Source of the DNA: a virus
Reading direction: 5' to 3' (one strand)
Length of the DNA stretch: 47,248 bases
Virus record (IMG/VR): IMGVR_UViG_3300042446_002063
Span: 1 to 47,248 of that record
Shown: piece by piece, positions 7,065 to 23,300 of the stretch
How positions within the stretch are numbered: position 1 is the first letter of the stretch
How the letters are laid out: the number at the start of each line of letters is the position of its first letter
Position numbers and translations under genes: made by a program
The notes under the pieces: model-generated
What the model was told of the DNA's origin: nothing
The model's database searches: none
What the model saw: only the letters and a program-made list of their open reading frames with translations

Positions 7065-8734
7065 TTCAATGCTGCCAATTCTGGAATAATTTTTAGTATA
7101 TTTTCTTTTCTAATGTCGTCTAACTCGTGTGTCTTGCGCCAAAAAGTATCTATTAAGTGAGTGTTGTCTGTGGCCATCATAAAGGTGATAGCTGATTCAA
7201 ATCCTTGTGTGGCTCGTTGCAGTGGATCTTGATCACGTAGCCACATGATGTGATCGGAGTAAATTGTGCTTAACTCTTGTTTGTATTCTACAGGTGCAAT
7301 ATCTATTCTGTAATGTAGTGGATCTTGTAGTATGTTTATATTCAAATCTTGCGCACGAATCAATCCACGTTCTACCCAGTCTCTATGAAAATCTGGCAGG
7401 TGCCATGCATTCATTATGCTCAGCGTAGGGCTGATGTAAAAATCCACTTCTGGGCATATCTGCAACATTTCTTGGCGATTGCGTTCCACCACTGCCCAGT
7501 CTGTGCCTTTGCGAATATATTCTGCACGTGAACCTGAGTCATCGAGACTGGCACCCACTGCTACACTGTCAAAGTGCCGCCAATATTCAAACACACTTTT
7601 ACCCTTGAGTTCAGTGTGTGTGAAGTTTGTGTTGTAGATCAATCGCACATCAAAACGTTTTCTACGTACTAGTTCTTCCAAGATGTTGTAGTGTTCTTCC
7701 ATCAACAAAGGTTCGCCACCAGCAAAATAAATTTGCTCTACGTAGTCCAAATGCGGTTCTAACTGTTCCCACATGTCTGTTTCAGTGCTTCCTGCATAGT
7801 TTAACACTGTGTTACGATCCTTCCAATCACCGCCAGCTAATTTAGCTTGGTCCTGATACCACTGACTACTAAAGATATGACCACAACTGCGACATTTTAA
7901 ATTACACAAGTTTGAAAAACGGATATCCCAGTATGTCATTTCAAACGGATTAGTTTCAAGTTTTTTAATTTGATGCCCGTGATGCTTGTTGGCCGACTTG
8001 CGTCCGCTAAAGAATCCATTGGCTTCTTGTTCGTAGCAACGACCACAGGTGGCATTTGGTGTTTCGTTTAACATATCCTCACGCAGTTGTTGCATGGGTG
8101 TATCAGTCCATATTTCTTCTAATGTGTTTTTACGACAGTTGCCCACTTGTCCCGCACCCATTTCAGCATGACAACAAGGATATGCTTCGCCTGTGGGGTA
8201 GGCATGCAGATGTATCCAAGGGTATATGCAAAATGTTTTTGACTTAGTTAATAAAAATCGTTCATGATCTGTTAATGATTTTAAATCTATTTTAACAGGA
8301 TCAGATGATCCATAACGATAAATTTTATTTTTAAAAGATGTACTATCGATTACATTCTTTTTAAATTTTCCGTCTGATTGAATCACAGTAATAAAATTCT
8401 GATCCTTATTAAGAATTTTTGCAAACTCATTATGGATATTAAGATTAGTGGTTACAAGTACAACGAAAAAGTTTGATATATCTACAAAATTAAGAATTTC
8501 TTGTAAATTTTCTACAATGATGCCAGGTGACTGATCAGGATCAATATAAAAATCTTGCTGATGAGAAAACACTATACGTTGATTGTGTGCATAAGGGTCT
8601 TGGTGTAACTTCTTGCAAGCATGTTCTAACCAATTACGACTCAAAGTAAAATCTTCAGTCCATTCAGTTAAATCTACTACTGCTAAAACATCAAACTCAG
8701 CTTTCAGTTGTTCTATGTGCTGTTCTATATTCAT
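7061..8734 (-). CDS. radical SAM protein, subfamily A, with an N-terminal alpha/beta extension (557 aa)
   Basis: The core motif is C277-x3-C281-x2-C284 (NLCNLKCRSCGH) and GGEPL is at 339-343. The SPASM-like auxiliary part is C169 in FCIYPW, C187-C188 in YPCCH, and C230-x2-C233. In front of it is an extension of about 165 residues with alternating strands and helices (for example FDVLAVVDLTEW, QRIVFSHQQDFY, NFFVVLVTTNL) that looks like a Rossmann-type or glycosyltransferase-like alpha/beta domain without cysteine clusters. The C-terminus has ELDDIRKENI, the DxxR signature. Its ATG overlaps the stop of the 445-aa gene, and its stop overlaps the next ATG, by 4 bases each. The extension may bind a sugar or nucleotide, or a partner protein; this is inference from fold pattern only. 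Confidence 0.92.
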   Translation of the reverse strand: MNIEQHIEQLKAEFDVLAVVDLTEWTEDFTLSRNWLEHACKKLHQDPYAHNQRIVFSHQQDFYIDPDQSPGIIVENLQEILNFVDISNFFVVLVTTNLNIHNEFAKILNKDQNFITVIQSDGKFKKNVIDSTSFKNKIYRYGSSDPVKIDLKSLTDHERFLLTKSKTFCIYPWIHLHAYPTGEAYPCCHAEMGAGQVGNCRKNTLEEIWTDTPMQQLREDMLNETPNATCGRCYEQEANGFFSGRKSANKHHGHQIKKLETNPFEMTYWDIRFSNLCNLKCRSCGHIFSSQWYQDQAKLAGGDWKDRNTVLNYAGSTETDMWEQLEPHLDYVEQIYFAGGEPLLMEEHYNILEELVRRKRFDVRLIYNTNFTHTELKGKSVFEYWRHFDSVAVGASLDDSGSRAEYIRKGTDWAVVERNRQEMLQICPEVDFYISPTLSIMNAWHLPDFHRDWVERGLIRAQDLNINILQDPLHYRIDIAPVEYKQELSTIYSDHIMWLRDQDPLQRATQGFESAITFMMATDNTHLIDTFWRKTHELDDIRKENILKIIPELAALK

Positions 8735-10068
8735 AAATTATTATACCATTCGCTTATTTTAGAAAAGCACTTGTCAAAACTTTTGCCACGACGTTGATCG
8801 TATTGTGTGTAAAACTGTTTAAAGTCATTCAACAGTTTTGGCATTTCAAATGCTTCCGAGTGTGGAGTTTCAACAACATCTAAGTAATCAATTAGTCGTT
8901 GCACATGATTGACTTCATGTTCGTGCAAACAAGGATTTTCACGATTGTGGAACAACCATGCTTCCAACTGCAAACGATAACCAGTACGTATATGGTCAGG
9001 TAATACCAAAGCACTCTGGAAACTAGGAAAGCGCAAGATGTTCAATGTAAAGTTCAGTTGATCACGCCCGTAACGTTGTTTTAAATTCAACATCAAGTTG
9101 AGGTGGTCCACAAGACTGTCCAGGCACAAGGCATTGATGGTACACATCACATGCACTGCACTGACAAATCGACCTTCCAACAAAAACAATACATTGTTCA
9201 GCCATTGATCATAGTTCAGGCCATCTCTAATATACTCTGCTTGAGCAAATGTGGCTTCCATAGAGGTATATAGATCCACCTTGGGCAATGCAGCGATCGC
9301 CACTGCAAAGTCTTTCATCTTGTCCAAGTCAATGCCAAGATTTGAATTGATTGCTAACCGGGTGTTGCTACGTCCTTGATTGTTTTTAAACCATTCAATC
9401 AGTTGCCAGGTGTAGCCTGACATCAGCGGCTCACCGCCAGTTATTCGGAGTTCTTGCAGGGTGCGGTGGAGGTCTCGTTCCCACCAGTCAAAGAAGGCTT
9501 CCACATACGGATTAGTCTCACCGAATTTATAAAGTTGACTATTATCATGAGTGTGAGTAAAATGGTTCCTGCCATCGCTAACAAGTCCGATGTAGGGCCC
9601 ATGTTTCCGGATGTCATTGACCCAAGTGGAACTAAAAGCAGGATTGCAATAAGAACAAGCAAATTGACAAGTGCGATCAAAACTAATTTCGAGAGTTCTA
9701 AGATTGACATCGTCTTGGACGGGAGTGTTAACAGCTTCATGCAAGGCCTCTATGGGATAAATTTTACTTTTGTACACACGGTCACTCACAGCGTCAGTGT
9801 GCATGTCTTCGATCTTCCAGCAGTATTCGCATCCAGCAGGGCGTTCACCAGCCAACATCTTGCGCCGGTCCGCTTTCTTCTCATCAGTATTGTGCAGCAG
9901 CCTAGAGTTGTTATTGACTTTATCAGCGTCAATCAAATGGGCTGGCGGGTGATGGCAACTTGTGGTCTGCCCACTTCCTAACCAAATGGTAGCATTGTAC
10001 CATTTCGCCGCACAAAAACTTGAGGACACAGGGTCCAACACTTGTTGTTTAAATTCTAAATCATTCAT
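8731..10068 (-). CDS. radical SAM protein, subfamily B (445 aa)
   Basis: The core motif is C134-x3-C138-x2-C141 (TCQFACSYCNP) and GGEPL is at 211-215. The N-terminal region has the subfamily B signature: C19 in FCAAKW, C38 in TSCHHPPAH, LHNT, then C80-x2-C83 in CEYCWKIED and SDR. The arrangement mirrors a SPASM/twitch domain, but with CxxKW and a single Cys-His pair where subfamily A has CC. The C-terminus carries YDQRRGKSF (DxxR signature). It is most similar to the 465-aa protein by eye: both have a long insertion between the cluster motif and GGEPL that includes ESNPY- or ETNPY-type segments. It is preceded by the glycosyltransferase-like gene (8-base overlap) and followed by the 557-aa copy (4-base overlap). 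Confidence 0.92.
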   Translation of the reverse strand: MNDLEFKQQVLDPVSSSFCAAKWYNATIWLGSGQTTSCHHPPAHLIDADKVNNNSRLLHNTDEKKADRRKMLAGERPAGCEYCWKIEDMHTDAVSDRVYKSKIYPIEALHEAVNTPVQDDVNLRTLEISFDRTCQFACSYCNPAFSSTWVNDIRKHGPYIGLVSDGRNHFTHTHDNSQLYKFGETNPYVEAFFDWWERDLHRTLQELRITGGEPLMSGYTWQLIEWFKNNQGRSNTRLAINSNLGIDLDKMKDFAVAIAALPKVDLYTSMEATFAQAEYIRDGLNYDQWLNNVLFLLEGRFVSAVHVMCTINALCLDSLVDHLNLMLNLKQRYGRDQLNFTLNILRFPSFQSALVLPDHIRTGYRLQLEAWLFHNRENPCLHEHEVNHVQRLIDYLDVVETPHSEAFEMPKLLNDFKQFYTQYDQRRGKSFDKCFSKISEWYNNL

Positions 10069-11164
10069 TTATGTATTGGGTCAGTCTTTCAGGAAGTTCT
10101 GCACGTTCGCGAGCATTGTGTTCGCGAAGTTGTTGATAGTTGTATTTACAAACGGATTCAGCGGCTTCCAAGAAACTGGCAGCACCATTATAACATATAT
10201 CTGCCACAACGTCAACTATTCTGTCAGCACGATCTTTTGGATCATCAATCTGATCAAATGTTTCGTCAATCAAGTGCCTGAATGTTTGAAATCCTGCTGA
10301 ATGTAAATCTCTATAGTATCCTCGGTTGGCTGCTACCACAAACGGGTGACACATAATCATGGGTTTCCATATCTTCTCTGTACGGAATGTATAAGGGTAG
10401 TCAAATATGGTTTCTGTGACTACACTGAAGTACGTGTCAATGTAGGCGGCAGGGTTGACTTCGGCATCGCCCCAAGTGTTATCAAACAAATGATGTTTTA
10501 CGAATCCTGCAGGCACTGTGTCCATGTTAGACAATGCACGATTAATTTCATAATGTTTAGGTAATAGTCGCACAGGTTCTGAGTTACCAGTTTGTAGTTG
10601 ACTGGTCCAGGGCATTTCCACTCGATCATTGAGATTGGTCCACAGTGCTCGATCCAACAACTTGCGATCACGCATGACATCTATTAGATACTTGCGATGT
10701 GGGCGTAGTCGACCGTTGAGAAACAAAAAGTCATAAGGTTTGTTTTGTTTGTGATACACTTGTGGGTGCGATTCGTGCGCACGTAGATTTTCTAGGTACT
10801 CCACAATGTTGGAGAAGTAGCAGTCTGTCTTACAGTAACGCAAGCCGGGCTCCATGTCTCCGGATGTTAATAATAAAATTTCACCTCGGCAAACTTGTTC
10901 TTTGATGCGCAGGCGTGCGAGTTGCAACAGTATGGTTTCGCTGCCTTCTGCAGGATTTGAAAACACAATGCGCCCAGGATAATGCCTTGCCCATTCTGTT
11001 ATTTCTGTCCAGTGGTTTTTTAATGTCACACGCCCAACAATATACACATTGTTGGGATCAAGTACAATGTCAGAGTATTGCCAGAAGCTCTCATCTGCAT
11101 ACGGCTTGAGCAAGTCCCACACTTCGGCCCACTCATCCACAATGATTTTACGATTGCCTAGCAT
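10061..11164 (-). CDS. glycosyltransferase-like protein between two radical SAM genes
   Basis: The product is about 367 aa. The longest frame starts at 11245 but would overlap the upstream gene by 98 bases. The ATG at 11164 follows GGGAGGAG at a slightly long spacing and starts the recognisable protein (MLGNRKIIVDEW). The N-terminal half is alpha/beta (VYIVGRVTLKN, GRIVFSN, GEILLLTSGDM). The middle has PYDFLFLNGRLRPHRKYL (143-160). The C-terminal half has YFSVVTETIFDYPYTF then RTEKIWKP (261-268) and HPFVVAANRGYY. That acidic/RTEKIWKP/HPFVV arrangement resembles the donor-binding region of GT-B enzymes of exostosin or fucosyltransferase type. It probably transfers a sugar. Its position inside the radical SAM block suggests that both act on the same molecule. 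Confidence 0.78.
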   Translation of the reverse strand: MLGNRKIIVDEWAEVWDLLKPYADESFWQYSDIVLDPNNVYIVGRVTLKNHWTEITEWARHYPGRIVFSNPAEGSETILLQLARLRIKEQVCRGEILLLTSGDMEPGLRYCKTDCYFSNIVEYLENLRAHESHPQVYHKQNKPYDFLFLNGRLRPHRKYLIDVMRDRKLLDRALWTNLNDRVEMPWTSQLQTGNSEPVRLLPKHYEINRALSNMDTVPAGFVKHHLFDNTWGDAEVNPAAYIDTYFSVVTETIFDYPYTFRTEKIWKPMIMCHPFVVAANRGYYRDLHSAGFQTFRHLIDETFDQIDDPKDRADRIVDVVADICYNGAASFLEAAESVCKYNYQQLREHNARERAELPERLTQYINE

Positions 11165-12545
11165 GGTATGCACACTCCTCCCACCATGCCCGCATCTCAG
11201 GAAATGTCGCCAAAAAGTTTGTGTCACGACGCTGATCGTGTTCATTAAAGAAACGATAGAAGTCTGCTTTGGCTTGTGAGTGATCAGTTAACTGTGCTGA
11301 TCGCATCCAGGCGATGTCACGATCCAGTCTGTGCAGTTCATAGTCCTTGAATCCTTTGAATGGTTCTTCTTCTGTTTCAATCTGTCTCACCATCCATGCC
11401 CACAACCATTCCAGTTTCTCTGCATAACTCTCAGGCAGTATCTGCAGGCTTTGCCACGCAGGTTCACGTAGCACGGGGGTATCGAACCACACACGTTGAT
11501 AGTCCGTGCTGTATACTTTGCGCAAGCCCAGGATGCCAGCAAACAGTTTGTCCAGACTGGTCACACTGAGATTGTTCATTGTGATGATAAATGTCAAACT
11601 TGAGTAGTTGGGAACTTCTGTAAGAAACTGATTTACTCGGTCCCACAATAAATCAAAGTCCAGGCCATGTCGCATATATTCTGCTTGAGCTCCCCACCCA
11701 TCCAGGCTCACATACTGCATGAAGTGTTCAATGCGGCCATCACATATTTGTTTTACATACCCCAGGTACTTTTGCCATGACTTCTCATCTACTGAGAAGT
11801 TGCTTGTGACATTCAAATGTAGTTTAGGGCTAGGGTTCGCCAACACATAATCAAACACCCTATATGTGTTTTTGTCCATAAGTGGCTCACCACCGGTCAT
11901 GCGGAAATGTTCTAAGTGAGGGTACAAGTCTGGCCACCACTGCCAGAAGGCATCAACATAAGGGTTTGATTCTCGAACGGGAATAGCACGGCGACTGCCA
12001 GCAAAATGCTCAGGAGCATTATGAGGCACCAGGGTAGGATATGCTCCCAGTCGAGCGACTTCATCTGCCCATGAGCTACTAAACTGAGGGCTGCAATAAC
12101 TACACCGCAGATTGCAAGCGTGATTAAAATTAACTTCAACATAACTGGGAATGACATTTTCCGCTCCTGTGCTGTTCTTTATTGATTCAAAATCCACTGC
12201 TGCCCAAGGCTCACCTGAGCGATAGTGTCGATCACTTAACTTGCCCTGGTCTTCCATGTTCCAGCAGTAAGAGCATTCTGTGGGCTTCTCACCTGCCAAC
12301 ATCATTCGGCGCTGTTGTTTTTTATAATTAGTATTGTGCAATGCTGACACATCTATTGCAATCTCTGCAGGATTGATTGGATGCAGTGGTGGATGGTAGC
12401 ATGAGTTATTCATGCCTGTGGTCAAATGCAAGCTGACCTGTTTCCACTTGGCCAAGCACAGTGCAGGACCTAGTTGATCGTGCATTTGTTCAGCAGAACT
12501 AAGAAACTTGCTCTTGTTGTTTACTGACTCGTTGCCCTTGTTCAT
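11148..12545 (-). CDS. radical SAM protein, subfamily B (465 aa)
   Basis: The core motif is C144-x3-C148-x2-C151 (ACNLRCSYCSP) and GGEPL is at 218-222. The auxiliary region is C30 in CLAKW, C49 in NSCYHPPLH, LHNT, and C91-x2-C94 in CSYCWNMED followed by SDR, closely parallel to the 445-aa protein. SLDGWGAQAEYMRHG in the second half of the barrel has counterparts in all paralogues and may line the substrate pocket. The C-terminus reads EHDQRRDTNFLATFPE, the clearest form of the shared DxxR signature. Its ATG overlaps the stop of the 351-aa gene by 4 bases. A hydrophobic frame nested at 11912-12157 is described under findings and is not annotated as a gene. Confidence 0.92.
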   Translation of the reverse strand: MNKGNESVNNKSKFLSSAEQMHDQLGPALCLAKWKQVSLHLTTGMNNSCYHPPLHPINPAEIAIDVSALHNTNYKKQQRRMMLAGEKPTECSYCWNMEDQGKLSDRHYRSGEPWAAVDFESIKNSTGAENVIPSYVEVNFNHACNLRCSYCSPQFSSSWADEVARLGAYPTLVPHNAPEHFAGSRRAIPVRESNPYVDAFWQWWPDLYPHLEHFRMTGGEPLMDKNTYRVFDYVLANPSPKLHLNVTSNFSVDEKSWQKYLGYVKQICDGRIEHFMQYVSLDGWGAQAEYMRHGLDFDLLWDRVNQFLTEVPNYSSLTFIITMNNLSVTSLDKLFAGILGLRKVYSTDYQRVWFDTPVLREPAWQSLQILPESYAEKLEWLWAWMVRQIETEEEPFKGFKDYELHRLDRDIAWMRSAQLTDHSQAKADFYRFFNEHDQRRDTNFLATFPEMRAWWEECAYHARQS

Positions 12546-13597
12546 ATTAACTTCAATGCAGATTTTTTAAAAGGAAGAAAATCAAACAAACTTTCTCCTC
12601 TTATTTTGTCTAGTAATAGAGTTTGCATAACTGTGTCTCTGAACAAATATTGATTAACATTGTCATTTATTTGTGACCTCATATAATTGCATTTGTTTTC
12701 ATCGTGATATATTTTTTCAATACTATCAACACACGCAATGGCTAAACTTTTAAGGTCATCAGGTATGGCTGATAACGTCAAACACTCAGGGTAATATAAG
12801 TCAGTTAAATTAACTGAAATTTTTTGATCTTTAAAAAATACCAGTAATTCTTCCAAGAACCATAAATTTAAAATACTCACAGTTGTACCAATATTTAATT
12901 TTACATTGTGAGGTTTTAACTCATTGATATTTTTAATTACTGTGTCCCATGATCCACCTGACCGTATATGATTAAATTTTTCACCAACCGCATCAATACT
13001 GGCTGTAATTTGCACTGATTTAAAATTTTTCCAAATATCTAAAATGTTTTTGTCTTTAAATTTTAGTACTGACATATTCGAATTATACTGCAACTCAATG
13101 TTCTTGCTTAGACCTTGCAATACCAACTCTTCTAATAGATCCCAATGTTCAAGGTTGATCAACGGTTCGCCGCCTGTGTAGTAAATGTGTTTTACACTTT
13201 CGTTAACAATAATTTTTTTATAATCAGTCAAAGGAAAATGTCTAATTGGATTAATTTCTCCAACTTCTTTAGCCCAAAGATTGCTATTATAAGGCCCGCA
13301 TGACCTACATTTAAAATTACACAAATTTGTGTTTCTTATATCAACAAACTGAAATCCTAGATTGTCTTTCTTTCTACGATTAAATGATTGCCGATAACTT
13401 GGCAGTTTGTTTGCTTCTGCATCAACACAAACTTTGCACTCAATAGGAGGTTCAAATGTTTTTAAATCTTTAAATGGTTGGTTGTGAATCTCAGTGATAT
13501 CTTTTCTATATGTGTGGGTTATTAGACAACATGGTGCTATCTTTCCATTTTCATAAAAAGTAACACCATGATCGATTGCTGCACATTGCCAAGTCAT
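12542..13597 (-). CDS. radical SAM protein, subfamily A, shortest and first copy (351 aa)
   Basis: This is the first radical SAM gene in transcription order. The core motif is C93-x3-C97-x2-C100 (NLCNFKCRSCGP) and GGEPL is at 142-146. The compact N-terminal part shows the SPASM-like pattern clearly: C5, a YENGKIAPCC strand (C23-C24), and C54-x2-C57. The C-terminus has LDKIRGESLFDFLP, a version of the shared DxxR signature. The gene is visibly more AT-rich than most neighbours, with long A/T runs and many Lys, Asn and Ile codons, which suggests a separate acquisition from the other copies. The start is ATG at 13597, six bases after the stop of the glycosyltransferase-like gene, with GGTGA as a possible ribosome site. 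Confidence 0.92.
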   Translation of the reverse strand: MTWQCAAIDHGVTFYENGKIAPCCLITHTYRKDITEIHNQPFKDLKTFEPPIECKVCVDAEANKLPSYRQSFNRRKKDNLGFQFVDIRNTNLCNFKCRSCGPYNSNLWAKEVGEINPIRHFPLTDYKKIIVNESVKHIYYTGGEPLINLEHWDLLEELVLQGLSKNIELQYNSNMSVLKFKDKNILDIWKNFKSVQITASIDAVGEKFNHIRSGGSWDTVIKNINELKPHNVKLNIGTTVSILNLWFLEELLVFFKDQKISVNLTDLYYPECLTLSAIPDDLKSLAIACVDSIEKIYHDENKCNYMRSQINDNVNQYLFRDTVMQTLLLDKIRGESLFDFLPFKKSALKLI

Positions 13598-13603
13598 ACA
13601 ATA

Positions 13604-14530
13604 TCACCAGCCTTCTTGCTGTCTAATCACATCAATCTCTCGTGTCATGACGCCACGATTGTGCCAGTTGCTACGATAGTGTTGTTTGAAGAATCGACTT
13701 TGTTCGCCTTCAAAGATGGCCATGGGCAAGTCTAGTTGACCGTGCAATTCATCTGCCACACGTCCGCTCAGTAATCTTGGTTCTGCATCTTTTACTGTGT
13801 CCCATATCTCATACAAGGCATCGAAGTCCTGAACTTTACGATGATCCCAGTTTGTGAGCATGGTCATATATGTGCCTTGTCTAGCACCGGCCATGGCCCA
13901 CTGTCCATTGTTAACGTCAGCACCAATGTTGTGCCATATGGTCAAGTGATCTAGATTACGTTTGTGTACCTGTTGTTGAAATTCTTCCACCGTGGGCCGG
14001 GCACCTTTGTTCAGGCACATTTTTACACCTTCACGGAATCCGGCCCGCCATGCCTGAAACGCCGACCCATTGGGATATGTGGTTGAGTAGCAGTCATGCA
14101 TGGCCCAGTACATGGGATCAAAACAAAACTCTACTTCAGTTTCTGTACGTCCGTCTGTGGCTTCATGAGTGCGCATGTTGAACACAAACTCTTTTGTCCA
14201 TGAACTCAGGCCACCATTGCCATACATGAGTCCATTGATGTGATTTCTGGCCCGCCAACGAAACACTGCCTGTTCCCAGTCAGCGGTATCAAACGTCAGT
14301 GTTTGATTGAAGAAGGCTGCATCAGGAATATTGTCACCGTCGATGAGTATGAAACGTTCAGTGGTGCTGGCTGTGGCAGCTGCCTTGTGTGCGGCATCTG
14401 AGCCTTTGATGCCATCCACTCGAGTGGCCCAAGGCACCATGTTCTTGATCTGGACCCAAAACTCTTCTTTTTCGGGCTCGTCGTAACTCAAGTATACACA
14501 GTCCAAGTCTGCAATGTCAATTTGATTCAT
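13604..14530 (-). CDS. glycosyltransferase-like protein of a marine phage type
   Basis: The product is about 308 aa starting MNQIDIADLDCVYLSYDEP. The frame opens further upstream (14572), but the ATG at 14530 has GGAG 11 bases before it and begins the conserved part. The key features are LSYDEPEKEEFW, then VPWATRVDGIKGSD, then FILIDGDN (60-67), a DxD-like motif typical of metal-binding GT-A glycosyltransferases. The second half is Trp-rich (YGNGGLSSWTKEF, FDPMYWAMHDCYST). From memory this combination is frequent in marine myoviruses, where it is usually annotated as hypothetical or glycosyltransferase. It overlaps the 111-aa gene by 14 bases. A sugar-transfer role on a virion or host glycan is likely but not proven. 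Confidence 0.8.
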   Translation of the reverse strand: MNQIDIADLDCVYLSYDEPEKEEFWVQIKNMVPWATRVDGIKGSDAAHKAAATASTTERFILIDGDNIPDAAFFNQTLTFDTADWEQAVFRWRARNHINGLMYGNGGLSSWTKEFVFNMRTHEATDGRTETEVEFCFDPMYWAMHDCYSTTYPNGSAFQAWRAGFREGVKMCLNKGARPTVEEFQQQVHKRNLDHLTIWHNIGADVNNGQWAMAGARQGTYMTMLTNWDHRKVQDFDALYEIWDTVKDAEPRLLSGRVADELHGQLDLPMAIFEGEQSRFFKQHYRSNWHNRGVMTREIDVIRQQEGW

Positions 14531-14852
14531 ATGTTTGTTTGCTCCAGCGGGTATGAGGTTGGTCCTCGGCAACGATTACAGCGACATTGTCAGGATGACA
14601 AGGGGATCCAGAGTTGCCAGGGACCAGTTTAAACGTTGTCTGCCAAGAGATTTCTACCAACTTACCATTGCGTACACGCACATTGGAGGCATTACGGTGG
14701 TATTCTTCCTGGCTGATTTCAATGTATGTACCAGGCTCGTCTGCCATGCTGTAGAATAGTGGATTGCCTTGGTCATCATGGTACAATCTAAAGAATGGCT
14801 GCTGGGGCTCTGGAGCTGCCTGAAATAATTGTTGTAGTTGTTCAGGTGTCAT
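14517..14852 (-). CDS. 111-aa conserved phage protein of unknown function
   Basis: The product starts MTPEQLQQLFQAAPEPQ when the ATG at 14852 is used. This ATG overlaps the TGA of the upstream gene by 4 bases, as at other junctions here, and AAGGA lies about 8 bases upstream; earlier in-frame starts (up to 14936) would run deep into the previous gene. The body reads FFRLYHDDQGNPLFYSM, a tyrosine-rich strand region, then KLVPGNSGSPCHPDNVAVIV and a basic C-terminus. I know similar small proteins from marine T4-like phages but no function for them. It is cytoplasmic by appearance: no signal peptide and no membrane segment. It sits between two glycosyltransferase-like genes, so an accessory role in that pathway is possible. 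Confidence 0.83.
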   Translation of the reverse strand: MTPEQLQQLFQAAPEPQQPFFRLYHDDQGNPLFYSMADEPGTYIEISQEEYHRNASNVRVRNGKLVEISWQTTFKLVPGNSGSPCHPDNVAVIVAEDQPHTRWSKQTYESN

Positions 14853-15616
14853 GCTCTCCATTCCTTTACGTTGTAATGAAATGCGCCTGTTTGCGCCACT
14901 GTTTGTATACGCAGTCGGCAGTCTTGATATTCCCAAACCAGTTCCTTGGTCCAGGCTTCTGTTGCTGTTCCTGCTGTGTGTCGTTTCATATGCACAATCT
15001 TTGGGTACGTGCTGAATGGCATTGTGACCCGTTCTCGACCCATGATTTCTGCGGCCATAGCATATACTAGATCAGTTGACGGCGTTTCATCTGGAAACTT
15101 TATGAGTTTCTTAAACTCTGCCCAGTTGGCAAATATGTTGCTGACCCATGAAAAAAACTCTTTAGCAGTTGTACTGCGCCGCCAGTATGTGACAGCATTG
15201 TACACATCGGGCAAGTTGTTGGCATCAAACACTCGGCGATAGTTTCTTGCTGTGCTCACACGGTCTTGCCAATCTCTACAGCCAGTGGATATTACAACAT
15301 CTCTATGTCTAAACTGTGTCCACCAATGATCAATGGGACTCACAATCAACATGTCTGCTTCTAGTTTTATGGTTTCACGAAATGGCGTGAGTCTGAACAG
15401 TTGTGCATCGTTGGCAAATGGATTGACATTGGGTGTAATCTGTCTGTGATGATCATACATGGGATCAGTGTCGAGGCTGTCTGTGACCAGGCAAATACGT
15501 GCTGACGGATCCCAATAGCGTATGGTCTTGGCCAAGGTTCTAGCACAGTCCTGGTAATCCACTGTGTCGCTGTTGACTGCAACAATCACATAACCTTGTT
15601 CATCTATCGGCTGCAA
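14849..15616 (-). CDS. GT-A-like glycosyltransferase (255 aa)
   Basis: The N-terminus GYVIVAVNSDTVDY is the first strand of a nucleotide-sugar binding fold, followed by ICLVTDS. RLTPFRETIKLEADMLIV (75-92) contains the acidic E86-A-D88 site where GT-A enzymes have their DxD metal motif. The start is TTG at 15616: it has AGGAG 7 bases upstream, whereas the only nearby ATG (15603) is out of frame. It overlaps the upstream gene by 17 bases. It is a clear paralogue of that gene: both open with a (V/L)I(V/F)A(V/F)N strand and both have an LxPFxxTxxL(E/D)AD block. The probable role is transfer of a sugar from a nucleotide donor. The acceptor is unknown. Confidence 0.82.
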   Translation of the reverse strand: MQPIDEQGYVIVAVNSDTVDYQDCARTLAKTIRYWDPSARICLVTDSLDTDPMYDHHRQITPNVNPFANDAQLFRLTPFRETIKLEADMLIVSPIDHWWTQFRHRDVVISTGCRDWQDRVSTARNYRRVFDANNLPDVYNAVTYWRRSTTAKEFFSWVSNIFANWAEFKKLIKFPDETPSTDLVYAMAAEIMGRERVTMPFSTYPKIVHMKRHTAGTATEAWTKELVWEYQDCRLRIQTVAQTGAFHYNVKEWRA

Positions 15617-16421
15617 CGATGGCTCCTAAATGTTTCTTGCACATGGCGTGAAAGTCTAATCCAGCCCAACTCAGGGTTTTGAGTCTACCTTCAGTATTGG
15701 TGTATTCAATTTCATAATGATCTTGTTCCACACACTTCAACCCATGATCTGGCATGACGTTGAGCATGGGGAAGAATATCTCATGCACTGATTGTTCAGC
15801 CCCTGCTACCAGTCCCAAGGCAATGCTCAGTGCATAGTCATTGCGATAATTGCTTTGATGGATGCCGTACAAATCTCGGTAATGCTGCCAGTTGGCTCGT
15901 ATCATTTGCATACTATCAAATATGTATTGGCTGATGTTGCCACGACGGAACATCATCACAGTGGCCCACCACATGGGCATATTATACGCACCAAATGTTT
16001 CAAGGTTGGTCATACTGCTGGGATCAAATCCATCCTTGAAAGCCGCAAACTGTTGTGGTAGTGTTAGTACTTCCAATAATCGATCACTGGCCACAACATA
16101 GTCAGCATCCAGTACCAGGGTTTGATCAAACGGTGACAGTTCATAAGCCGTGATGCGTCCAGCATTGTGCCAAGTTACTGTGGCACCGTAATCAGCAAAG
16201 TGTCGTGATCCGCCAGTGTCTGGTGCTGTGACAATGACGTGTTCAAATTTGTGCTGTGCGGCGGCCGCAGGATCATCAGTTACCACTGCCACAGGCAAGT
16301 TCAAGTGGCGGCGAATGTTTTGAGCACTCCATGCTGCCATGGTAATATAGTCCGTTGCCTCATTGTTGAAAGCAAAGATCAGCACACCTTGGGTTAGCGT
16401 TTTTTGTTTAACTCGTCCCAT
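15600..16421 (-). CDS. GT-A-like glycosyltransferase (273 aa)
   Basis: The first strand is GVLIFAFNNEATDY, then LPVAVVTDD, and SPFDQTLVLDADYVV with D105-A-D107 as the expected metal and nucleotide-sugar site. MPMWWATVMMFRRGN follows, a typical acceptor-side region. The frame is open up to 16454, with in-frame ATGs at 16433 and 16421. I chose 16421 because it limits the overlap with the upstream gene to 28 bases, but no strong ribosome site decides it. It forms a tandem pair with the 255-aa gene downstream and probably arose with it by duplication. It is early in the operon that carries the radical SAM genes. Confidence 0.82.
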   Translation of the reverse strand: MGRVKQKTLTQGVLIFAFNNEATDYITMAAWSAQNIRRHLNLPVAVVTDDPAAAAQHKFEHVIVTAPDTGGSRHFADYGATVTWHNAGRITAYELSPFDQTLVLDADYVVASDRLLEVLTLPQQFAAFKDGFDPSSMTNLETFGAYNMPMWWATVMMFRRGNISQYIFDSMQMIRANWQHYRDLYGIHQSNYRNDYALSIALGLVAGAEQSVHEIFFPMLNVMPDHGLKCVEQDHYEIEYTNTEGRLKTLSWAGLDFHAMCKKHLGAIVAADR

Positions 16422-16702
16422 TCCAATTTCCATGCGTTCATTTGTTCTTGCCAACGTTCATGTGCTAGAGCAAACAAGTCTGTCACAACAATTTGCACCG
16501 GAGTTTCATACAAATCTAGTATCACAACATCCTTGTCTTGTGCGCAGGCCAACAGCACAGTCAACAAGTCTGGACCTGCCCGCCACATCCCACCCCCATA
16601 GGCAAACACCATTCGTGCTTCATACTTCTCTTTTAGCACCCGTCGAGCGGCTGCGTGATCAAATCTTGCTCGTGCGTGAGCAACCAAGGCATCAGTATTC
16701 AT
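16394..16702 (-). CDS. 102-aa conserved phage protein, first gene of the operon
   Basis: The product starts MNTDALVAHARARFDHAA and is helical and charged in its first third. FAYGGGMWRAGPDLLTVLL follows, then VVILDLYETPVQI and a Trp-rich amphipathic C-terminus (RWQEQMNAWKLEW). I recall close relatives in marine T4-like phages, where the function is unassigned. No ribosome-binding site is visible before the ATG. Instead a TATAAT hexamer ends 5 bases upstream, which points to a leaderless transcript or to a promoter whose product starts at the ATG. It overlaps the next gene. Confidence 0.85.
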   Translation of the reverse strand: MNTDALVAHARARFDHAAARRVLKEKYEARMVFAYGGGMWRAGPDLLTVLLACAQDKDVVILDLYETPVQIVVTDLFALAHERWQEQMNAWKLEWDELNKKR

Positions 16703-16707
16703 AATGC

Positions 16708-16736
16708 ATTATACAGAAAAAACAGGAAAAAGTAAA
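16708..16736 (-). promoter_or_regulatory. sigma70-like promoter for the left operon
   Basis: On the minus strand TTTACT (16736-16731) is followed after 17 bases by TATAAT (16713-16708), a perfect -10 hexamer with TG just before it. The ATG of the 102-aa gene is only 5 bases further on, so the transcript would begin at or next to the start codon. The -35 hexamer overlaps the foot of the terminator stem. This is a host-polymerase type promoter and differs from the late octamers of the virion module. Confidence 0.6.
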
Positions 16737-16753
16737 GGGGCAACAGCCCCTTT
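16727..16753 (-). terminator. rho-independent terminator after the virion module
   Basis: A hairpin with arms AAAGGGGC (16734-16741) and GCCCCTTT (16746-16753) and a 4-base loop. Read on the minus strand it is followed by ACTTTTT (down to 16727). It lies 5 bases after the stop of the 316-aa gene. The plus strand also has T's after the stem, so it could act in both directions, but all genes here are on the minus strand. Confidence 0.8.
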
Positions 16754-16757
16754 TTGG

Positions 16758-17708
16758 TTAGACTGTGGTAGCTGCCACAGTGGGTGTGCCCCAGGAGTTG
16801 GTTAGATATGTTGTTTCGGGCGGGTAGTAGGTGACAATGGTACAAGGTGCTGTACCGGGGGTGGCACCCACTGCGGCAGTACCACCAGAAATTGGGTCAC
16901 CATCCGAAGCTGACCAAAGTGTGGTGATCACCAGTGTAGTTGAAGCGGCGCCTTTGGCAATACTGTGCTGAATAAAATTGCTGGTATACGGTGCTGTATC
17001 AGCAAACTGTTTGTACACAATGGTGGCAGCGGCACCGGCTACAAGATCATCCCAACCAGTGGCAGTACTCAGTGTGGTTGGCGTGCCTGTGCCACCAATC
17101 TTTGTGGTGCCAGTATAGGCCACGCCAGCAATGGTATGGCTAGTGGCCAGGCCAGAAATATATATGTCACCACAAAGGGTTGTGGCTAGGTCATTCCATT
17201 CTGGATCACCTAAGTCACCAGTTGCAGTTTTGCTGACATCAATTTTGACTGTGCCGCCTGCGTTAAAAAAGTTTGTGGCGGATGCGGCATTGGCAAAGGT
17301 CACTGTGTTGGTAAATGTAATGGTCCAGGTTGCACCTGATGTGGCAGCAGTTTTGCTGTTGGTACCAGTCCATCCTGTATATTGTGCGCCTTGAGCATAG
17401 GCATTGTAACGATTGGTAAAGCAACTGGTGATATCAGTGTTGACTGCACTCAAGATACTAATGGTATCACCAACAGTTGGAGCTGCTCTTGCAGTGATTG
17501 TGGTAGGCTGATGAGCTGCCATATTGGTAACGGTATTCACCAAACTGGCCCACTGTGTGGCTGATACTGTCCCAGCAGTGCTAACAGTGGACAATGCTGT
17601 TTGTCCGTATGCTGTGTTCCATGTGGCATTAATGTTGGCGCCAACGTTGGTGCTTACAAAACCATTATAATCTGCTGCTTGAATTAATCCACCTGATGAA
17701 TATGTCAT
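16758..17708 (-). CDS. Ser/Thr/Ala/Gly-rich virion structural protein
   Basis: The product is 316 aa and starts MTYSSGGLIQAADYNGFV. This N-terminal block, with WNTAYGQTALSTVS after it, resembles small structural or fibre-associated proteins of cyanophages and other marine myoviruses. The rest is low in charge and rich in Thr, Ala, Gly and Ser with many short beta-type repeats (ATWTITFTNTVTFANA), as in adhesins and tail fibres. There is no enzyme motif. The ATG at 17708 has AGGA about 7 bases upstream and follows the 595-aa fibre gene by 12 bases. It is the last gene before the terminator. The probable role is in the tail fibre or receptor-facing surface. Confidence 0.75.
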   Translation of the reverse strand: MTYSSGGLIQAADYNGFVSTNVGANINATWNTAYGQTALSTVSTAGTVSATQWASLVNTVTNMAAHQPTTITARAAPTVGDTISILSAVNTDITSCFTNRYNAYAQGAQYTGWTGTNSKTAATSGATWTITFTNTVTFANAASATNFFNAGGTVKIDVSKTATGDLGDPEWNDLATTLCGDIYISGLATSHTIAGVAYTGTTKIGGTGTPTTLSTATGWDDLVAGAAATIVYKQFADTAPYTSNFIQHSIAKGAASTTLVITTLWSASDGDPISGGTAAVGATPGTAPCTIVTYYPPETTYLTNSWGTPTVAATTV

Positions 17709-17720
17709 TTTTGTTTCCTA

Positions 17721-19508
17721 TTACTTTATTGTCACAATCGCTTCGATTGTTCCTAATCCCGTTAGGTGTTTATTTTCCAGTGAGCGACCAATTACATTAA
17801 ATGCTGTGGCCTCGCCTGGCTGTGCTGCTCTAGCAACACCTTCACCGGCACTCACAAGTCTGTCACCTTTGCGAATTATACCCACACATTTTACAGGAAC
17901 TCGACCGGTCATTGCAACCGCTGGATGAGTATCATCTTCACCGGCTCCGCCGTTCATTGTGTAGGCTGGTCTTGTACTTATCACGCCAAATACATTTTCA
18001 CTTAAATCTTGCGTACTTCTGGTGATTTCTTTGACACCGCCCAGTTCTACCACAGTGCCCGGTTCTAGTAGTTCATCTGCAGCAAACCGTTCTGCAACGT
18101 CGGCGTAAAGTGCTGTGGTTGCTGTGGCAAACACACGGTTGAAATAATTACTACTTGATCCAATATTACCAATAGCATTGGTACCAATTTTTTCAATGCC
18201 AGCAACGCTGACGTTGCCAACAAAGTATGCAGTACCAGTTGATAGTACTAACACATTGCCAGTTCCACCCACATCAAAATTAATGTTGCCGCCTGCAATA
18301 CCAATGTTGCCTTCTGTGCTACCATTTACAAACTTGGTAACACTGACCCCCAAACTCAAGCCGGTCAGCTGTGATCCATTGCCAAGAATAAACGAGCCTG
18401 CAATGTTGGCCTGACTGGTGATGTTACCAGTGGCACTTACTTGTCCAGCAGTGCGCAAGTTACCTGCCTGTACATTGGCTGTGGCGCTGATTGTATCAGC
18501 CTGCACCAATGCCAAGGTATTGATATTTCCACCAATTATGTTGCCAATTGCACTTACTTGACCAGCAGTGGTCAAATTACCGCCTGAGCTGTTGCCAGTT
18601 ACTGTTAATGTTGTACCCACAGTGGCAGCATTGCTAATGGCAAATGTACCACTGGCTCCCAGTGCTGAGGCCACATTGTATGTTGTACCGCTCACATTGG
18701 CCTGAATGATTAAATTACCACCAGAAATTGCACTCTTGATGTTGGCATCTGTAGAAGTAGTGTTTACGTTAAACACGTTGGCCACACCAACAAACAAACC
18801 AGTATTGTTTTGAACACGCAAGATACCAGTTGTAGAAGTGGCTGTGTCGGTGCGCATGAACTGACTGCTGTCCAAACTGTCCAACAACTGTGAGTTAGTT
18901 GCTGATCCTGCAAATACAGCACCAGACACGCTTGCACTCAATGTAACACCTGGGAAAATAGTTGGGAACGCAACTAGTAAGGCAGCTTCAGGGATAAAAC
19001 TTGCACCATCATAAACAATGGCCACACGCACGTTGTTCACATACAAACTAGTAATGTATCGTGTGGCGCCGGTGTTATTGAGAATTGTTTCAGGAATAGC
19101 ACCAGACTGTCCTTGAGCACTGGAATAACCAGGCCCTACCACTAAGAAACTTGCACCAGTGTAGACTTTTAACTGTTGGTTTGTGGTGTCATACCACAAA
19201 TCACCAGTGACATTGCTGGCTGGTGCGCTGGCAGAAGCAGTGGCTGACCCAATGTTTTTAAATAAAGTGCCAGTGTACACTTTTAACAGTGTATTGGTTT
19301 TGTCCCACCATAACTGCCCAGTCAACGGAGCGGCTGGTGCTGTGGTATTTGATCCGCTTTCCAACAAGTGGATAAAGTTTTCATCTAAAAACTCGCCGTA
19401 ACCAGCGTAGTTTTTACCCACCAAGATCATTGAACTTGATGTGTTGATGGTACCATCAGCAATGGTAGCAAAAACTGTGCCGTCTGTTAGATTGATTGTA
19501 TATGCCAT
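17721..19508 (-). CDS. tail fibre-like protein (595 aa)
   Basis: The N-terminus YTINLTDGTVFATIADGTIN, then GYGEFLDENFIHLLES and two copies of a (Q/D)LW(W/Y)D-TxN-xxLKVYTG unit (about residues 65-83 and 101-119), form a block I associate with fibres of marine myoviruses. The middle (about 240-420) is a repetitive beta region of GNI- and GNL-type repeats with Ala, Thr and Val. The C-terminus starts at YADVAERFAADELLEPGTVV (about 463-482) and has STQDLSENVFGVIST and GRVPVKCVGIIRKGDRLVSAG, a compact domain that may cap or trimerise the fibre. The ATG at 19508 has AGGA upstream and an exact TATAAATA octamer 22 bases before it. Host-recognition proteins are usually variable, so a precise function cannot be given. 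Confidence 0.8.
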   Translation of the reverse strand: MAYTINLTDGTVFATIADGTINTSSSMILVGKNYAGYGEFLDENFIHLLESGSNTTAPAAPLTGQLWWDKTNTLLKVYTGTLFKNIGSATASASAPASNVTGDLWYDTTNQQLKVYTGASFLVVGPGYSSAQGQSGAIPETILNNTGATRYITSLYVNNVRVAIVYDGASFIPEAALLVAFPTIFPGVTLSASVSGAVFAGSATNSQLLDSLDSSQFMRTDTATSTTGILRVQNNTGLFVGVANVFNVNTTSTDANIKSAISGGNLIIQANVSGTTYNVASALGASGTFAISNAATVGTTLTVTGNSSGGNLTTAGQVSAIGNIIGGNINTLALVQADTISATANVQAGNLRTAGQVSATGNITSQANIAGSFILGNGSQLTGLSLGVSVTKFVNGSTEGNIGIAGGNINFDVGGTGNVLVLSTGTAYFVGNVSVAGIEKIGTNAIGNIGSSSNYFNRVFATATTALYADVAERFAADELLEPGTVVELGGVKEITRSTQDLSENVFGVISTRPAYTMNGGAGEDDTHPAVAMTGRVPVKCVGIIRKGDRLVSAGEGVARAAQPGEATAFNVIGRSLENKHLTGLGTIEAIVTIK

Positions 19509-19529
19509 GTCAAAGGTTCCTAGTTGCTA

Positions 19530-19537
19530 TATTTATA
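19530..19537 (-). promoter_or_regulatory. T4-type late promoter octamer TATAAATA
   Basis: The exact T4 late consensus TATAAATA is on the minus strand, 22 bases before the ATG of the fibre-like gene, with a ribosome site (AGGA) between. It overlaps the stop codon of the 202-aa gene. T4-like phages use such octamers with the gp55 sigma factor, which is not in this window. Confidence 0.65.
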
Positions 19538-20141
19538 CAGCATTTATGTTACTCAGCGTCTGTATACGCAGGGTGTAATCAATTTGAATCTGACGATTCA
19601 AACTCTTTTGTACAGGATGGAAAATTACATGTGTGATCAAGCGTAGATTATCTACAGATCCGTTCCATGTTTTTAACCCAAGTTCGTCAAACACAAATTC
19701 ACCACTGAAATTGGTTGAATTGTCAAATGCCTGTTGTTCAGGCGGTTCGCCGTAGTCCAACAAACAAGTCACAAGAATATCACTGTACACATTGCCCGAA
19801 GTGTGTAACGGGGTCATTTTGTTGTTTTCAGGGTCAGTGTCAGCTGCTGAATTGTCGTTGACCACTTTAGAATAAGTTTGATTGTACAAGTCAGCATTTT
19901 GCCCTGTGGTGTTTGGGGGCAAATAGGTGATAACTCCTGTGGGATCAACTGAACTACCGCCGTTGCCAAAGGCCATTTCATAGATATATCCAACGTTGCG
20001 ATTGCTCAGTGTTTGAGCCATGGCCAAACTGATATTCTCATAATGAATTGCGTTTTTCTTGTCTACCAAAATTTCGCCAGTGTTGGGGTCATGTATCTTG
20101 ACAAATCCTTCAATTTTGCACAGTCCGGGTTGAATAATCAT
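19533..20141 (-). CDS. tail-region virion protein (202 aa)
   Basis: The product starts MIIQPGLCKIEGFVKIHDP and includes MAFGNGGSSVDPTGVITYLP, ADLYNQTYSKVV, and a beta-rich C-terminus ending in RQIQIDYTLRIQTLS. It has no enzyme motif, signal peptide or membrane segment. I know this general type from marine myoviruses as an unassigned structural protein near the tail fibre genes. The ATG overlaps the stop of the 49-aa gene in the GCATGA arrangement, with GGAGGGCAGGG just upstream as ribosome site. The likely role is as a baseplate or fibre connector. Confidence 0.75.
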   Translation of the reverse strand: MIIQPGLCKIEGFVKIHDPNTGEILVDKKNAIHYENISLAMAQTLSNRNVGYIYEMAFGNGGSSVDPTGVITYLPPNTTGQNADLYNQTYSKVVNDNSAADTDPENNKMTPLHTSGNVYSDILVTCLLDYGEPPEQQAFDNSTNFSGEFVFDELGLKTWNGSVDNLRLITHVIFHPVQKSLNRQIQIDYTLRIQTLSNINAV

Positions 20142-20287
20142 GCCCTGCCCTCCACATAGGTTTTTTGAGTTTTTGGATCAAAAATTCTCATGTGCGCTTG
20201 CACACTTATTGTGCCGGTTTCATTTGGGCGGCGAGGAGCAGGCTGTTGAGTCTGCTGTTTGTTCTGATCTTGTGGTGTATTTGCCAT
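20138..20287 (-). CDS. 49-aa protein between the giant gene and the 202-aa tail gene
   Basis: A small gene seen by reading the gap. The ATG at 20287 (an in-frame ATG at 20293 adds two residues) leads to a frame whose TGA overlaps the ATG at 20141. The product has a Gln/Pro-rich N-terminal third (MANTPQDQNKQQTQQPAP), then RRPNETGTISVQAHMRIF and ends TYVEGRA. The C-terminal half (HMRIFDPKTQK) resembles the start of the 202-aa protein (VKIHDPNTGE), as if a short beta-hairpin were shared. Gene size, tight packing and coupling support it. The function is unknown; probably a virion component. Confidence 0.68.
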   Translation of the reverse strand: MANTPQDQNKQQTQQPAPRRPNETGTISVQAHMRIFDPKTQKTYVEGRA

Positions 20288-20294
20288 GGTCATT

Positions 20295-20302
20295 TATTTA
20301 TC
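20295..20302 (-). promoter_or_regulatory. late-promoter-like octamer GATAAATA
   Basis: GATAAATA on the minus strand lies in the 19-base gap after the giant gene. It ends 1 base before an ATG (20293) and 7 bases before the next in-frame ATG (20287). If it is used, the mRNA would start at or inside the 49-aa gene, or serve mainly the 202-aa gene behind it. Confidence 0.45.
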
Positions 20303-20306
20303 CGTG

Positions 20307-23300
20307 TTATCTGTCACACAAAAACCTTGCAGCTACAGTATCAGTTTCTTGCAGTGCAATACCATTGCTGGGCGTGCCAACACCAGGCTCGTACCAAGTT
20401 TTTCCGCGTCGTTGCAAGATAGTTACTTCGCTGCCAGCTGCTGGCGCAGAGTAAGTGTTATCAACAATAAACTCAATAGCCAATGGGTCAAATAGCGAAA
20501 CAATATAACGATATTGACTATCAGCTGTGGTGTTGCTGTAGTTGTATTGGCGTGTGCCGCCTACGTATACTTCAATGCTTTCAACATACACAGTGCTTGA
20601 ATCACCAAAATCAGCAATGTCAATATTGGGTGCATAGAACACTGCTGTGGTGCCATCGCCCATGCTGGTGTCTTTGACCACGTAGTCTTGATACTGAACA
20701 TTCAACAAGTTACCGCGTCCAAAGTCGTACACATCTGTACCCACCAAGTGATTGGCTGCTGCTGTACCAGCTGTGCCGCGTTGTAATCCAGAAACTGTGT
20801 TTAAGGCAGTGTTCCGATAACGATACATGATTCGTTCGCCATTGATAGATACCACACCAAATACACCTGCTGGCAAATTGGGCTCAGTCAACGCTGCTGC
20901 ATTTTCCACATAAATTATGTCAGCAGTGCTACTCAGCGCTTGCGCCAATGTTGTTGTTGTAGAAGTAGTTATTCTATATGTGGCTTGTACTCCGCGCATG
21001 TCTTGGAAAATACGAAAGGCTGTTGCTTCCGGCACAATTGAATTTGTAAATTCAGTTACAATTAATGTTTGGTTGTTATTAATCACTCCCTGCGCTAATA
21101 TTAAATATTGTCCTTGAATAGTATAGTCACTGCCTTCAAACAGTCTGTAACCATCTAATGTGACCCATAATCTGCTGGCATCAATGTTAGTGCGCAGCAA
21201 ATCAAAATCGTTGACTGGTACAGATGTTCCTAGTTCAAACGAGAACTCGCCAGGAAGTGGTTGTCCAGGATCGTTTAGAGTTGGACTGTCATAGTCTGTT
21301 GTGTCATATTCTTGATAAATGGTACCACTAGTTGAGACTGGTCCAGTAAATGTCAATGTCAATGCATTTTGTTGGCTGGTGTCATTCCATGTAACCACGC
21401 TGAGTACATCGTTTTGATTCAAAGTAGATACAATTTGCAACAATGCACTAAATGATGCTGCTGATGGGTCATAGGCAAACAAGCAATCAGCCAAAGTTGA
21501 TACTGCAATCAAAATTACGTCTCCACTTTGCGGATTGTTTTCAAACACAACTTGTCGTCCAGGAACATTGCTGCCGTCCCAGTTTGTGACACTGTAAGTA
21601 CCATCTTCGGCGCCAAATGATTGTTTTTGCAACACACCATTCACATACACTTGTATGTCATTGACCGCATCAATACTGCTCTGCAAGAAACTGGTGCCCA
21701 TGCGTTGTGGTAGTCCAAAACTAGATGTGGTGCCATCACCAATCCATTCTATACAACTTGGGCCAAGTATTCTATATCCATTGACCATGACAATCATGTT
21801 GGCTGGATTAGTTCCAACTGGTGGGTTCTCTAAAGTCACTGCCCCATTGGTAATAATTGTTTGATCTACAATAAATGTTTCAATTTCTGGAGTGCTCCAG
21901 TTCTGATAATTTGTAGGAACAAATTTTGCTGTTAATTCACCAATCCAAGTAGCTTCATCATTGATTAATGCAACTTCAGTTGTGCCATTTTCAGTGATAG
22001 TAATAGCATTCATAGAGTCATCAATTATGCTTAGAATTGTGTAATTTGTTTCAGTCAATACACCACCTAGGCTATAACCTGAGAATGTAACTGTTTGTCC
22101 CACAGACAAATTAGATGTTGATCCCAGTAACACAATGGCATTGCCCAAGGCTTGAGTATCAGCAACTACAATACTAGCGGCATTTCCTAGAACTACAACT
22201 GCTATTCCATCAGTTGCTAAAACGCTGGCAGTAATGGCCAGTCTAGTATATGTGGTGGGATTAAACGGCAACCAGTAATTGGTATCGGTCAATGTGATAC
22301 CTGCAGGTACTGTTTGTACTGCTCTATAATAATTTCCTTTGGGGGACCCAGTCATTGATCCTGTTGCAGTAGACAACACAAATGGAGTTGTTGCGCCGGC
22401 AATCTCGCTGATGTAAAATTGTGTACTGTTTACTATATTTTGCACATAGTATGTTTGACCAGCAACAATGCCGCCAAATGTAGTACCTGAAAACACAATA
22501 GGTTGTCCCACTGTCATTGCACTGGTGTTGTTGCAAGTAACTATGTTAGCACCGCTAACAGTGCTGGTAACTGTAATTTGGGTGTCATTAAAGATAATAT
22601 CCAAGGCTTGATATGTGTTATTCAAGTTCCATGCTTGACTGATTGTGTAAGGACGCAACTGAGGTATTGCCACTATTTTGCCGTTTATAAACACATATGC
22701 TTCTACAATTTCGGCATAATTTACTGGTAGAATTATAATGTTGTTATCTGCTACAACTGTGGCACCATCATAATTTCCTCGGAACAACTGGCTACCACCA
22801 CCCACTTCATAAACATCAATAACAACAATGTCAAATGCAGATACACTGTTAACGTTAATAATGGTTACATATTGTTCGTTCCAGTTTACAGTATAATCAA
22901 TATCTTCAGTTAGTACTTGTCCAGTGGTTAAATTAGAAACAACTATGTTGAATGGGTGTTCTACAACGTCGGCCCAACTGTAATCAAATGTAATCCCTGG
23001 CTCAAAAGTATAACGAATTGTACCAATTTGGAAACCGTGCCCGTCAAAAGTCCAGTCAGATCCTGGGCGTGTGTAGATACGCATGTCCATGGTGTCATAT
23101 TCAGCACCATTGATCAATTCTTCAGGTGCATGTCCTTCGTAAGGACCAACAAACTCACCACCGTCAACATTGATGTCTGACGGGCGGGTGCCAAGATAAA
23201 TGTCTGCAAATTCACTTTGATAATTGGCATCTAGTGTTTGTGTACCGGTGAAATATTCGCCCCAAACTTGAACTCCTGGATAATCTACTCCATCTACCAG

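Follow-up and report, generated by a model that had tools for sequence, protein, structure and literature searches.

Two layouts of gene start appear to coexist in the 47,248-nt stretch of viral DNA analysed here (the window) and in the phage records related to it. In the usual one, a promoter would be followed by a leader of approximately 10-25 nt, a Shine-Dalgarno (SD) motif and the gene; in the other, a -10-type box seems to be placed so that RNA polymerase would start on the ATG, or at most 3 nt before it, and no SD motif is present. The second layout is best explained as deliberate: both sigma70-like and T4-type late promoters would start transcripts whose leaders measure 0-3 nt, and we assign this reading a probability of about 0.85 from the DNA evidence. 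The boxes, their fixed spacing, the absence of SD motifs, the ATG starts, the conservation of these features and, at the late boxes, a base pattern fitting a transcription start can all be read in the genomes compared below. The window is presumably part of a large T4-superfamily phage, as judged from its virion genes and its relatives.

The first-pass annotation had proposed deliberate leaderless initiation because two genes of the window, the 102-aa gene and the gp25 gene, showed the same layout. The conserved geometry supports this proposal, but in related genes the leader may be 0-3 nt rather than strictly 0. The two genes do share their spacing, but their promoters are of different kinds (sigma70-like and T4-type late), and three genes of the window, not two, have the layout. 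The features concerned are collected in Table 1.

Table 1. Genes, promoter elements and control sites located in the window.
Feature	Position	Strand	Remarks
102-aa gene, ORF	16394-16702	-	78 loci; leaderless start predicted, with +1 on or next to the A of ATG 16702
-10 box TATAAT	16713-16708	-	Followed by GCATT and the ATG at 16702; spacing 5 nt
-35-like element TTTACT	16736-16731	-	Spacer to TATAAT 17 bp
Intrinsic-terminator-like hairpin, end of upstream gene	16753-16734	-	8 bp, 5 G-C, T-rich tail; overlaps the -35
gp25 baseplate wedge gene, ORF	39819-40193	-	PF04965, phrog_43; leaderless start predicted, with +1 at the A of its ATG
T4-type late promoter box CATAAATA	40206-40199	-	Followed by TTGAC and the ATG; spacing 5 nt
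Late promoter box GATAAATA	20302-20295	-	7 nt before the conserved ATG 20287
49-aa gene	20138-20287	-	Start probably the second ATG; predicted 3-nt leader ACC
Late promoter TATAAATA	19537-19530	-	21 nt before gene 17721-19508; leadered, AGGA
Late promoter AATAAATA	39799-39792	-	19 nt before baseplate gene 36317-39772; leadered, no obvious SD
Look-alike TATAAT	8745-8740	-	5 nt before ATG 8734, inside upstream coding sequence; negative control

For the 102-aa gene, the reported TATAAT 5 bases before the ATG and the lack of an SD motif were both recovered, on the minus strand, which had been left unstated. Together, TTTACT and TATAAT match 10 of the 12 consensus bases. The 78 loci carrying this gene yielded 61 distinct 60-nt upstream sequences, in which the best -10 hexamer was sought over 0-15 nt. 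It was located 5-6 nt from the ATG in 58 of the 61 (11% after shuffling), and TACAAT at 6 nt was seen by eye in two of the remaining three; an SD-like 4-mer was found in none (0/61). The best -35 hexamer was TTTACT in 35 sequences and TAGACT in 20 (together 55/61), and the spacer between both elements measured 17 bp in 58 of the 61 and 16 bp in 2 more, as in a conserved promoter of sigma70 type. The hairpin overlapped the -35 in 59 of the 61 distinct relatives, either with the -35 at the 3' edge of the stem (42) or inside the hairpin (17); it was strong in 51 (a score reached by 0.8% of shuffles) and was followed by at least five T in 10 bases in 49. From this overlap, the terminator of the preceding gene and the promoter of the 102-aa gene seem to share about 45 bp.

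All 40 aligned 102-aa sequences, with identities down to 51%, share Met1, and nearly all share Thr3 (alignment A1: the sequence of the window and 39 of the 78 loci). A true start codon further downstream, the objection that the first-pass annotation had raised against its own reading, thus does not apply to this gene. The predicted structure of the 102-aa protein (pLDDT 86.7) had an uncharacterized phage protein as its best match in a Foldseek viral search (E 8e-8), followed by DUF4376 proteins (E 0.0035 and weaker), and the predicted fold weakly resembles DUF4376-type phage proteins. No family was found in PHROGs (E 0.001) or Pfam (E 0.1), no match in INPHARED and no significant fold in the PDB. 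The gene overlaps its neighbour by 61 nt, and the gene cluster downstream of it includes two genes for radical-SAM proteins (7061-8734 and 12542-13597, minus strand).

The gp25 gene was identified by PF04965 (29.2 bits, cut-off 27.2) and phrog_43 (E 2e-11). Its octamer 5 bases before the ATG at 40193, already pointed out in the first-pass annotation along with the missing ribosome site, was found as described, on the minus strand, and no SD motif precedes the gene in the window. Of the best 80 of 120 relatives, 78 were used, as two began inside the gene, giving 45 distinct upstream sequences. ATAAATA stood exactly 5 nt before the ATG in 41 of the 45 and the near-box GATAAGTA in the other 4, so that the conservation of the 5-base spacing, suggested earlier as a check, held for both genes. 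An SD-like motif was present in 3 of the 45, each time an AAGG upstream of a GATAAGTA box. Mean information content was 1.94 bits per position in the box and 0.34 at -60 to -16, indicating that the box is retained while the DNA above it turns over. The near layout was also shown by 6 of 6 members of the gp25 family in the records compared, the window included.

ATAAATA occurred four times in the 47-kb window, always on the minus strand (0 copies on the plus strand) and each time just upstream of an ORF start (40193, 39772, 20287 and 19508). The third of these belongs to a 49-aa gene whose listed start, 20293, is probably wrong and was corrected to 20287, since the first ATG is absent from most relatives and only the equivalent of 20287 is retained. 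TAAATA lay 4-7 nt before an in-frame ATG in all 57 distinct relatives of this gene (range searched, 0-60 nt); when only the most upstream in-frame ATG was considered, 51 relatives had the motif 4, 6 or 7 nt away and 3 had it 1 nt away, while 3 lacked it. The 49-aa protein had no PHROG match. A third of the window is taken up by a 5336-aa open reading frame (20307-36317, minus strand).

A single TATAAT-N5-ATG is weak evidence, because the window contains 37 copies of TATAAT on both strands and the same geometry is seen at 8734. That site was considered as a further leaderless case and rejected: its TATAAT belongs to the end of the preceding gene's coding sequence, and 0 of 6 orthologues show it at the called start. 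A promoter scan of positions 14000-21000 gave 13 sites, not significantly above shuffled sequences (10.8 +/- 3.1). The comparative tests, by contrast, place the box-start geometry far beyond chance.

Genome-wide counts were made in six IMG/VR records (G001, G002, G003 without its last 175 bases, G004, G006 and G008) from 12 long relatives, with 1397 genes called by a codon model holding no promoter or SD information. Expected counts came from permuted motifs, some of which (TAAATAA, AAATATA, TTAAAT) overlap the promoter core, so that the expected values are if anything too high. TAAATA was found 4-7 nt before the start (near class) in 86 genes (9.3 expected), at 8-14 nt (between) in 8 (11.9 expected) and at 15-31 nt (far class) in 133 (32.6 expected), corresponding to 45, 7 and 74 gene families, respectively; families are given because orthologous genes are not independent, and gene starts are the calls of this analysis. 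For strict ATAAATA, the near, between and far counts were 29, 0 and 59 (2.8, 5.3 and 9.3 expected). TATAAT was found in 16 genes at 5-6 nt (2.0 expected), 4 at 8-14 nt (8.0) and 97 at 15-31 nt (17); anchored on gene starts, 6 nt was commoner than 5 nt (12 vs. 4).

The SD motif followed the same classes. SD-like motifs preceded 2 of the 86 near, 3 of the 8 between and 101 of the 133 far TAAATA genes; 0 of 29 near vs. 43 of 59 far genes with strict ATAAATA (Fisher 5e-12); and 1 of 16 near vs. 87 of 97 far genes with TATAAT (Fisher 3e-11). All 86 near TAAATA genes started with ATG, as did 124 of the 133 far ones, and ATG-only starts were nearly general among leadered genes too (152/154). Predicted folding of the first 45 nt was weaker in near-class genes than in genes having neither layout (-3.0 vs. 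-5.0 kcal/mol, p 3e-5); compared with leadered genes (-3.8 kcal/mol), it was not clearly so (p 0.07). A strong early-type promoter, TTGACC-17-TATAAT placed some 30 nt from the ATG and accompanied by AAAGGAG, recurs before many small genes of the six records, and this promoter type occurs in leaderless form also.

Fifty-nine families had at least one near-layout gene, accounting for 109 of their 168 members (TACAAT variants, the called genes of the window and the 8734 look-alike included). Thirty-nine of these families were present in at least two genomes, and 23 of the 39 had at least two near-layout members. The layout was found in 5 of 5 portal genes (phrog_213, at 7 nt), in 4 of 4 members of a superoxide dismutase family (PF02777 and PF00081 in the member tested; at 4-5 nt), among them an iron/manganese superoxide dismutase with a late box 4 nt before its ATG (G004:C1:137960-138508), in 4 of 5 members of a calcineurin-like phosphoesterase family encoded beside gp55, in 4 of 5 genes for a GIY-YIG protein and in 2 of 3 for a GGACT-family protein. 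The window had 24 called genes, all on the minus strand; the caller missed both the 102-aa and the 49-aa genes, so called gene sets are incomplete. Counted independently of gene calling in the 12 related records, ATAAATA-N5-ATG occurred 43 times, vs. 2 for the reversed pattern. TATAAT-N5-ATG was not enriched in the 12 whole records (43 vs. 41 reversed-pattern controls), and the TATAAT near signal appeared only when anchored on gene starts.

The T4 late box is counted from -13 in a review of T4 (PMC2988020); by this arithmetic, an 8-base TATAAATA ends at -6, and a spacing of 5 nt makes the A of the ATG the +1 base. For late boxes at spacing 5, the base preceding the ATG (base 5) was a pyrimidine in 37 of 38 genes and 23 of 24 families (background 50%), and in 45 of 45 gp25 relatives; a pyrimidine at this position would prevent initiation one base too soon. 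Of the 20 genes with spacing 7, 19 had A at base 5 and all 20 had pyrimidines at bases 6-7, a pattern suggestive of a 3-nt leader AYY, and the 49-aa gene of the window is of this kind (ACC). The base before the ATG was free at spacing 4 (22 genes). The TATAAT near class had no clear start-base pattern, and among the 102-aa relatives the base preceding the ATG was a pyrimidine in only 45 of 61. No strong consensus was found in the 12 bases upstream of the TAAATA core. A gp55-type late sigma was found in 11 of the 12 related records (the 47-kb record of the window being outside this search); the twelfth, G001 (225 kb), may be a fragment. For the gp45 clamp, on which late transcription in T4 depends, the profile PF02916 matched 0 of the 12 records by Pfam, and it matched no control either.

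The base pattern at spacing 7, with a suggested start 3 nt before the ATG and an example in the 49-aa gene, raises the question of whether part of the class has leaders of 2-3 nt and forms a separate, near-leaderless class. We put this at about even odds and regard it as a refinement, not a contradiction, of the 0-3 nt reading, although at spacing 5 the base-5 pyrimidine (37/38) seems to shift initiation to the ATG. A rival explanation is that the layout is an accident of genome compaction, with promoters squeezed into short gaps near the ATG and translation proceeding from read-through RNAs by coupling or 70S scanning. The gaps are indeed short, with 15 nt in front of gp25 and 55 nt in front of the 102-aa gene, and, as the look-alike at 8734 demonstrates, chance can produce the geometry; however, the spacing at gp25 stays constant whereas the DNA above it is variable, distances of 8-14 nt are avoided or not enriched, SD motifs are missing from the near class only, and the hairpin precedes the 102-aa gene in nearly all distinct relatives (59/61), so that an accident seems improbable to us.

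Still less credible is a role of the AT-rich element as a translation signal, for example an A/U-rich stretch bound by S1, in place of a promoter. An AT-rich bias before non-SD starts has been discussed in terms of possible S1 sites (PMC5397173), but the core seen here also stands 15-31 nt upstream of genes that mostly bear an SD motif, it matches the T4 late box in a group whose related phages encode gp55, a -35 element 17 bp away is conserved at the 102-aa site, and the purine/pyrimidine pattern of the late boxes fits an RNA start.

Under deliberate initiation with 0-3 nt leaders, the 102-aa gene would be transcribed by sigma70-RNA polymerase from a promoter overlapping the terminator of the preceding gene, while the gp25 and 49-aa genes would use T4-type late boxes, presumably read by the gp55-type sigma of the phage (gp55-RNA polymerase). 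A 70S ribosome with initiator tRNA would then bind the AUG at the 5' end, the mode given for leaderless mRNAs in PMC9031893. Kasugamycin is reported to leave leaderless translation unaffected (PMC5230787). The actual RNA 5' ends and the leaderless translation are what we infer from these promoter positions. Leadered copies could also come from transcription reading through from upstream genes, for gp25 above all. A phage clade with leaderless or near-leaderless RNAs for portal, baseplate, superoxide dismutase and phosphoesterase genes, alongside SD-led genes that have the same promoter boxes, would offer a natural comparison of two initiation routes within one genome and would show how leader length can be set by promoter sequence alone.

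The six related records carried 23-35 tRNA genes each, with exactly one tRNA-Met having C1/A72 in every record; no such tRNA-Met was found in T4, HTVC008M, 121Q or S-PM2. We take C1/A72 on a tRNA-Met to be a mark of initiator tRNA; of the three G-C pairs usual in the anticodon stem, only part was present. More initiator tRNA strongly enhances leaderless translation and only slightly canonical translation, according to a review (PMC9031893). A gene for ribosomal protein bS21 was found in 5 of the 12 related records (G001-G005) and in HTVC008M; its relatives among genome contigs were mixed and 34-57% identical, and gave no host assignment. Equating these phages with the bS21-encoding phages of PMC9723584 was considered and rejected, as the GC content given for the latter is 31.0-33.7% vs. 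43-46% in the window and three of the records. In G001 (L163-L174), ARAGORN labelled a tRNA with anticodon CTA as Pyl, a possible amber-reading tRNA.

A wider and tentative proposal, which we hold as possible but rather doubtful, is that initiation with 0-3 nt leaders works as a second, regulated channel beside the SD route, in which a start-site code in the late promoter sets the leader length and the phage's own initiator-like tRNA helps. The proposed code would be a pyrimidine at base 5 for spacing 5, and A followed by two pyrimidines for spacing 7. The C1/A72 tRNA-Met of the six records and the bS21 of 5 of the 12 are counted in its favour; the Pelagibacter phage HTVC008M, which has the layout and no C1/A72 tRNA, speaks against a tRNA-aided channel.

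Among named phages, the closest likeness was found in HTVC008M, an isolated phage, in which 8 of 166 called genes had ATAAATA exactly 5 nt before the ATG; SD-like motifs occurred in 2 of these 8, upstream of or overlapping the box. In its annotated stretch 5800-20000, 5 of 5 sites were at annotated starts, including those for the tail tube cap, tape measure and end protector. It shares the ATAAATA-N5-ATG layout with the related records but differs in its smaller genome, its known host and in that no initiator-like tRNA was found in it; no report of this leaderless layout in HTVC008M was found in titles and abstract openings of the open-access literature. ATAAATA at 4-7 nt was found in none of the called genes of T4 (210), 121Q (337) or S-PM2 (110), these being fewer than the features of the records (296, 618 and 270, respectively). 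Raw ATAAATA-N5-ATG counts, pattern vs. control, were 9/1 in HTVC008M, 2/0 in T4, 2/1 in S-PM2, 1/2 in 121Q, 3/3 in P-SSM2, 0/2 in KVP40 and 0/0 in both Phosso and XaC1.

The late promoters of T4 (gp55/gp33/gp45) resemble those described here in having a TATAAATA-type box at the -10 position, and a gp55 homologue is present. They differ in that 0 of 210 called T4 genes have ATAAATA 4-7 nt from the start, whereas many do in the related records, and in that most gp25 relatives (36/45) begin the box with C. Single leaderless cases are known in phages, such as lambda cI (PMC9031893), and a jumbo-phage paper remarks in passing that phage transcripts "are often leaderless" (PMC5312081). No description of systematic leaderless late genes in a T4-type phage was found in titles and abstract openings of the open-access literature. 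The parts, leaderless mRNAs and T4 late promoters, are well known; within that literature we found no report of the systematic use of late boxes, conserved family by family, for leaders of 0-3 nt. The leaderless mRNAs of Caulobacter, Mycobacterium and lambda cI likewise have a -10 box about 10 bp upstream and no SD motif, as given in PMC3160421, PMC4117421 and PMC9031893. The present case differs from them in that it concerns a T4-superfamily phage and dozens of gene families, portal and baseplate genes included, and in that a phage-type late promoter is used as well.
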